Below are positions 55,182-56,364 of a stretch of 64,000 nt of DNA, piece after piece. This stretch comes from an uncultured Bacteroidaceae bacterium (GTDB taxonomy: Bacteria; Bacteroidota; Bacteroidia; Bacteroidales; Bacteroidaceae), in assembly GCA_905235285.1 (NCBI GenBank), contig CAJOLI010000001.1, positions 58,265-122,264 on the forward strand, written 5' to 3'. The notes under the pieces were generated by a model. The model was not told where the DNA came from and did not search any database. It saw nothing but the letters and a program-made list of their open reading frames with translations. Positions within the stretch are counted from its first letter, which is position 1. Each line of letters starts with the position of its first letter. A program made the position numbers and the translations under genes.

Positions 55182-56364
55182 TTACTTTTTTTTAGTTGTG
55201 CCGCAGCATTCTTTGTCACCCTTGCAGCCAGGCTTGCCGCATGAACCGCTCTTGTCACAGACGCCGCTCTTGCAGCAGTCGTTGCCGCTCTGACACTTGT
55301 GACCGGCAGCCTTCTTCGGGCAACCGCCGCAGCCGTCAGCCTTGGGGCAGCCATTGGCCTTGGGGCAGCCGTCAGCCTTAGCACAGGGGGCTACCTTCTC
55401 ACAAGCAGCGCAAGGGCATTCCTCACGGGCGCAGCATTTGGCATCGCTGGCGCAGTTGCAGGCGGGGTCGCCGCAGCTGCCGTCCTTGCAGGCACACTGC
55501 TTCTTCTCGGCGCAAGTGCAGTCGGGCTTGTCGCAGCACTTCTCTGCCTTGTGGCAGCAGTTGCCGGCGGGTTTGGCACCGCCGAGGGCGTTGACATACT
55601 GCTGAATGCCCGTGAGCACCATCTCGCCAACACCTTTAGAGGTCAGCGTAGCACCGGTGACACCGTCGACCTGAGTCTCGCCTTCACTGGAACCCTTCTT
55701 GACAACGGTCAGAGCGACGTTGCCATCAGGCCCCATGACGGGACGACCAATGAACTTGGAACTTAGCTTCCTTGATGAGAGCACCCAGACCAGCGGTCTC
55801 GCTCTCATGGTCGAAGTAAGCACCGAGCACGCTCTGCAAGTCAGGCGTAACGGCCACATAGCCCCAAAGGCCACCCCATAGGCCACGGCCCTTGAGGGGG
55901 AGCACGAGAGCTTCAGCGCCGTCGGCAGTCTTTGCCTTGTATACGGGGAACTTGTCGCCAATCTCCTTGGTCTGGACGTCGAAGGCGTTAGCGCCATCAA
56001 TGACCTGACCGTCGGGAGTCAGCACACAAGTCTCTTGAATCAATTCGTCAAACTTGCCTTCGACCTCGCTCTTAGCCAGGCCGCGAACATTCAAGGAGGC
56101 AAGTATCTGGGATTTCTTATCAATAGCTACGTTAGCATCCTGAGCAGGCTTGAGAGCGCTGCTGACGAAGGCCAGCAGGAAGGCCACGAGCACCACCAAG
56201 ACTGCGGCATAGCAGATGGTGTAAACATTGCTGTTGGTGTTTATGCCCTTAGGCTTTTCCTCCTTGATGTGGGAGGTGTCAGCGCCGCAGATAGGGCACT
56301 TGTCGGGCATTGATGCGGCTTCAAACGTTTGGCCGCATTGGCTGCATAAAAATTTCTTTGCCAT
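55182..56364 (-). CDS. nqrC: Na+-NQR subunit C with N-terminal rubredoxin-like ribbon and C-terminal Cys-rich tail; +1 frame change near 55745-55775
   Basis: Frame A 55726-56364 (TM and first part of FMN domain), frame B up to 55182 (SKFIGRPVMGPDG, DGVTGATLTSKGV FMN-threonine motif, then 29-Cys tail). Confidence 0.88.
55330..55383. repeat. 18-bp x3 tandem repeat inside the Cys-rich tail
   Basis: CAGCCGTCAGCCTTGGGG / CAGCCATTGGCCTTGGGG / CAGCCGTCAGCCTTAGCA, encoding KADGCPKANGCPKADGC on the minus strand. Confidence 0.9.

Follow-up and report, generated by a model that had tools for sequence, protein, structure and literature searches.

Organization of the nqr Locus and its Interrupted nqrC

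The window, a stretch of 64,000 nucleotides on a contig of an uncultured Bacteroidaceae bacterium, carries a complete series of nqr genes on its reverse strand (Table 1). The gene order nqrA to nqrF surrounds nqrC, which retains the FMN-attachment motif GAT.T as GATLTSKG, and the cysteine of the NqrF sequence YLCGPPMM aligns with that of YMCGPPMM in V. cholerae NqrF, in the region of the Ag+-sensitive site. In the window nqrC is not a single open frame; it is split by a 5-nt deletion, located by alignment with ten relatives between TTCCA and AGTTCAT (approximately 55756/55757), inside the FMN-binding domain and upstream of the cysteine-rich tail described below; in relatives the frame is intact. 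Owing to the split frame, the FMN_bind profile matches the window nqrC as two pieces, and the sequence is compatible with either faulty assembly or a genuine mutation. One relative with an intact frame (G016) matches TIGR01938 (NqrC) with 170.6 bits (cut-off 144) and PDB 3lwx with an E-value of 1e-37. Since about 30 other species have a homologous tail that continues in frame from the FMN domain, the deletion leaves the standing of the tail intact. Pairwise dN/dS between the window tail and those of relatives is mostly 0.05-0.08, with one pair at 0.18; this visible constraint suggests that any decay of the window nqrC is probably recent.

Table 1. Features of the nqr locus and of NqrC in the window.
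Feature	Coordinates	Strand	Basis or comment
nqrA	59377-58049	-	By position and sequence
Gene for small four-helix protein	58018-57761	-	Between nqrA and nqrB
nqrB	57551-56370	-	By position and sequence
nqrC (whole)	56364-55182	-	Two frames
nqrD	55149-54523	-	By position and sequence
nqrE	54360-53734	-	By position and sequence
nqrF	53715-52426	-	PDB 8a1t_F match, E 3e-122
nqrC 5' part: rubredoxin-like N-terminus, transmembrane helix, start of FMN domain; ends out of frame	55726-56364	-	
nqrC 3' part past the frameshift: end of FMN domain, Cys-rich tail, stop	55182-55760	-	
N-terminal rubredoxin-like domain (RUBY_RBDX), cytoplasmic side	56257-56364	-	PF21349, 36.3 bits, cut-off 26.5
Single transmembrane helix of NqrC	56152-56226	-	Sequence; a relative's AlphaFold model also has the helix
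FMN-binding domain (PF04205), in two frames	55611-55884	-	Contig matches 113875-113970 and 114023-114148
Frameshift junction	55756-55757	-	Window shorter by 5 nt in an alignment with 10 relatives
Cys-rich tail, 132 aa, 29 Cys	Codons 55185-55580, stop 55182-55184	-	Same frame as second half of FMN domain
Tail block 1 (KCCDKPDC...CPCAACEK), conserved Cys module	55395-55541	-	15 Cys columns, mean conservation 0.956
Tail middle: short Cys repeats of variable number (AKADGC/PKANGC type)	55302-55394	-	
Tail block 2 (HKCQSGNDCCKSGVCDKSGSCGKPGCKGDKECCG...)	55185-55301	-	8 invariant Cys

Two further features accompany the operon. The small four-helix protein encoded between nqrA and nqrB resembles the 23S rRNA intervening-sequence protein (PF05635, slightly below the cut-off), and a similar motif occurs near nqr at two other loci (L159 and L162). 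The rubredoxin-like N-terminal domain of NqrC (PF21349) is frequent in the genus and, in a sample of 20 NqrC loci covering other genera of the family, is present in most; one NqrC (G244, L170) carries two such domains in tandem. In a relative, this N-terminus is modeled by AlphaFold with good confidence, and the domain could provide an additional iron or electron site on NQR.

Anatomy and Composition of the NqrC Tail

The frame ending at 55182 reads ...GEMVLTGIQQYVNALG at the end of the FMN domain, followed by GAKPAGNCCHK...KGDKECCGTTKKK and a stop codon, which bears out the earlier count of 132 residues with 29 cysteines (22%) beyond the FMN domain. The tail is attached directly past the last helix of this domain, and its reading as a C-terminal extension of NqrC on the periplasmic side likewise holds. 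It comprises two blocks separated by a repetitive middle. The consensus of block 1 is KCCDKPDCxCAEKKxCACKDGSCGDxACNCASDAKCCAREECPCxxCEK and that of block 2 is HKCKSGNDCCKSGxCDKSGSCGKPGCxGDKACCG; the middle repeats vary in kind and number across relatives, comprising units such as AKAEGC, GQHEGC, CNPCECENCCC and ELPECCKPGADCC.

Across the 32 homologous tails identified in relatives, the composition is 21.1% Cys, 13.6% Gly, 13.5% Lys, 12.8% Ala and 0.2% Phe, with no Tyr or Trp, such that the hydrophobic and aromatic residues of a folded core are almost absent. The first-pass annotation called the tail metallothionein-like and pointed to its many CC, CxC and CxxC pairs. The former description is apt for the composition only, as metallothioneins have about 20-30% Cys and no aromatics; the latter is true as a count, but the pairs do not exceed shuffles of the same composition (CC 170 observed against 182, CxC 121 against 144), and CxxC reaches about half of its expectation (51 against 114). 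Nor does any family in Pfam, NCBIfam or the PDB match the tail, and no metallothionein family is among them. In an AlphaFold model of a relative (from 23 sequences), the tail has a pLDDT of 25-45 compared to approximately 90 in the FMN domain, although the tool performs poorly on such sequences. No second copy of the tail was found in the genome of the window, no homologs were found in viral contigs, and the RnfG of the same genome, part of an RNF complex (RnfD, G, E, A) at G000:C127 (L001), bears no Cys tail.

Distribution of Tailed NqrC

To catalogue NqrC termini, 139 genomes of the genus were searched; the NqrC FMN domain was detected in 125, and 120 NqrC proteins were classed. In 32 of these the tail is homologous to that of the window protein, a further 12 carry other tails with at least 8 Cys, 29 have tails with 2-7 Cys, 9 have a tail with at most one Cys, and 38 have none. 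The homologous tails span about 45-200 residues with 8-45 Cys, and are found in 32 of the 34 members of one NqrC clade (SH support 99), a count which excludes the window's own species. In approximately 30 MAGs from several studies the tail and FMN domain share one uninterrupted frame. A scan of GTDB species genomes with two block-1 patterns returned the same tail in 26 records, several of which are genomes already counted in the genus search; all are MAGs assigned to Bacteroidaceae, Prevotellaceae or Bacteroidales, and many sample names refer to rumen, omasum or reticulum. At 26 loci inspected for Cys-rich reading frames adjoining NqrC, the only coherent one lay in NqrC itself, with the other matches being short frames. 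A weak block-2 match elsewhere (G093:C44, E 1e-3) falls in a short frame within the region of a radical-SAM (YgiQ-like) gene and was judged to be due to chance.

The tail is variable even between close relatives. Block 1 or block 2 is absent from some species of the clade, and among proteins with identical NqrC cores, block 1 has been lost between G118 and the pair G143 and G149, and the repeat number differs between G050 and G073. Outside the clade, the tails of other lineages of the genus are built from different units (CADCTKECKDGK, GGCGMHEGCPKAE, CGQGQ and CPKEDCPMAG) with only Cys richness in common, some of them as arrays of CADCTKECKDGKK, GGCGMHEGCPKAEG or CGQGQ repeats. The occurrence of different Cys-rich units across lineages is in keeping with selection for a large number of thiols and not for a particular fold. 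On the tree, parsimony has the state "at least 10 Cys" change 11 times, although a single origin of all Cys-rich tails is not formally rejected (AU test, p 0.06). In the sample of 20 loci from elsewhere in the family, NqrC stops after the FMN domain or bears a short tail; in one genus (g40), two members have short tails with several Cys, which end near HNVE. A conserved [TN][DN]VEQ-like C-terminus is shared by many short and some Cys-rich tails of the genus (34 NqrC, e.g. L086, L097, L140).

Selection on the Tail

A codon alignment of 29 tails was used to estimate pooled dN/dS, with synonymous sites near saturation. The resulting values are 0.086 for block 1, 0.049 for block 2 and 0.18 for the variable middle, compared to 0.080 for the FMN domain; constraint on the two blocks matches that on the flavin-binding domain in strength. 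All eight Cys columns of block 2 are invariant in the 29 species, and every one of them mixes TGC and TGT codons; block 2 is also conserved at its non-Cys positions, with a mean conservation of 0.92. In block 1, the 15 Cys columns are 95.6% conserved, compared to 83% at other residues. Selection therefore acts on the tail as protein, and on its cysteines above all, with the Cys pattern conserved over some 30 species. It had been anticipated that relatives whose NqrC ends after the FMN domain would argue against the tail; many species of the genus do have such proteins, but in the clade as a whole the tail stays in frame and purifying selection on it is strong, from which we conclude that it is not an artefact.

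Thiol Redox State in the Host Lineage

DsbB was detected in none of the 139 genomes, with positive controls, and VKOR in 11 of 139, both absences being provisional as the MAGs are incomplete; the reductase DsbD was found in 54 of 61 genomes. The window's genome is among those with a VKOR (L191, G000:C59:7744-8109), where it is fused to C39 peptidase-like and thioredoxin-like domains. A LanC-like gene lies next to it, and together they probably serve peptide export, with the VKOR as a dedicated disulfide oxidase. As DsbB was not found and VKOR is rare, the tail thiols are probably reduced, and it is likely, allowing for MAG incompleteness, that the periplasm of these presumed anaerobes leaves thiols in that state. 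Moreover, odd Cys totals are as common among the tails as even ones (23 and 21, respectively), which argues against complete disulfide pairing.

A Possible Metal Buffer at the Sodium Pump

A metal-binding or thiol function is favored by the composition of the tail, by its conservation, by the absence of any fold in the prediction and by how seldom disulfide-forming enzymes were found. Our leading explanation, to which we assign a probability of about 0.5, is that the tail is a metallothionein-like, unfolded polythiol domain that binds metals at the sodium pump and protects NQR. In this view, the polythiol stretch, intrinsically unfolded and continuous with the flavin domain of NqrC in the periplasm, would capture thiophilic ions (Zn2+, Cu+, Cd2+ or Ag+-like) at the pump's mouth, and would thereby buffer metals capable of inhibiting NQR or of attacking its thiols and its iron-sulfur clusters. 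Reduced thiols, metal binding and pump protection are all three inferred here. The enzyme is known to be metal-sensitive: Vibrio NQR is inhibited by Ag+ (IC50 20 nM) and Zn2+ (1 uM) (PMC12682751), and that of P. bryantii, whose NqrC has 210 residues, by micromolar Ag+ (PMC6560451). This sensitivity, together with the retention of the CGPPMM-site Cys in the window NqrF, favors a local metal buffer. Several data weigh against it. Unlike typical metallothioneins, the tail is not enriched in CC, CxC or CxxC over its composition, and it matches no metallothionein family; the known metal-sensitive Cys of NQR lies in NqrF on the cytoplasmic side, such that a periplasmic sink could protect it only indirectly; and most species of the genus and family do without the tail.

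The same thiols might instead serve in redox chemistry, with Cys pairs near the FMN of NqrC receiving electrons from the pump or relaying them to thiol proteins in the periplasm or to small oxidants (oxygen, disulfides, polysulfide), by which NQR would gain a side branch that reduces periplasmic thiols or scavenges oxidants. The placement of many Cys on a periplasmic flavin-carrying domain, the near universality of DsbD-type thiol reductants in the genus and the precedent of flavinylated systems for which coupling to DsbD and to a CxC protein is described (PMC8238504) are consistent with such a role. We nevertheless regard it as unlikely, given that the tail has neither a thioredoxin-like fold nor a conserved single CxxC active site, that CxxC is depleted, and that the number (8-45) and spacing of the Cys vary widely. 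A similarly unlikely alternative is that blocks 1 and 2 are small cystine-rich modules which bind a partner protein, an envelope component or fumarate reductase; the near invariance of block 2 even between its cysteines, their even number and their knottin-like order (C-x5-CC-x4-C-x5-C) speak for such a module. It is hard to reconcile with the scarcity of oxidizing folding machinery, the odd Cys totals of half of the tails, the loss of one or other block in some species of the clade, and the lack of a PDB or Pfam relative or a predicted fold.

The position of the tail invites a mechanical reading. The hydrophilic domain of NqrC lies in the periplasm and shuttles an electron by swinging from NqrB to NqrD-E; it rotates by 26 degrees and acts as an electron switch (PMC10643135). 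As the tail is joined directly to the last helix of that domain, a metal- or thiol-loaded tail, changed in size and charge, might hinder the swing and tune the pump as a responsive brake. This mode of attachment would be equally compatible with any other function, and we consider the brake improbable. Lastly, the frameshift in the window gene and the varying number of short repeats in the middle could be read as neutral repeat drift or as an assembly or frame artefact. With the tail in frame in about 30 MAGs from several studies and dN/dS at 0.05-0.09 in blocks whose block-2 cysteines do not vary, we give that explanation almost no credence. Chance or a frame artefact as the source of the tail as such is ruled out by the in-frame homologs and by the dN/dS of the blocks and of the middle.

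Comparison with Known Systems

In its N-terminal transmembrane helix, periplasmic covalent-FMN domain and nqrABCDEF operon, the protein is a regular NqrC of Na+-NQR (TIGR01938; PDB 3lwx, 7xk3_C). Canonical NqrC ends shortly past the last helix of the FMN domain (210 residues in P. bryantii, 257 in V. cholerae), a feature that is usual rather than strictly defining; the tailed proteins add 45-199 Cys-rich residues, often together with an N-terminal rubredoxin-like domain. With metallothioneins the tail shares very high Cys content (21%), lack of Tyr and Trp, Lys richness and a probably unfolded state without metal. Those are free, small cytosolic proteins, whereas here a membrane enzyme carries the stretch as a tail facing the periplasm, with neither a family match nor CxC enrichment. 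The plant P1B-ATPase HMA4 is another membrane ion pump with a di-Cys-rich C-terminal extension, and its di-Cys motifs bind zinc at nanomolar affinity and are required for function (PMC6255694); yet in HMA4 the metal is itself the transported ion and the tail lies in the cytosol, whereas NQR transports sodium and has its tail in the periplasm, and we draw an analogy without claiming homology. In the DsbD/DUF4266 flavinylated systems (PMC8238504), a periplasmic flavin carrier is likewise associated with Cys motifs, there as one CxC on a separate small protein, here as tens of Cys on NqrC itself.

The first-pass remark that no NqrC of this form is known to have been described agrees with our search of open-access papers: none was found that joins NqrC with cysteine-rich, or nqr with metallothionein. 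We rate the Cys-tailed protein as a new form of NqrC, not described before in the open-access literature searched. It is a speculative, and in our estimate rather improbable, extension that metals or thiols regulate the NQR of these rumen bacteria, whose tail would sense or buffer periplasmic metals and couple their state to electron flow and sodium export; the papers searched describe no such mode of control for NQR or RNF. Overall, these data reveal a core respiratory sodium pump whose mobile flavin subunit has gained a large polythiol domain, which is under strong selection in tens of species. They offer a testable link between periplasmic metal or thiol chemistry and energy conservation in rumen bacteria, for which natural tailed and untailed forms of one enzyme are available for experiments.
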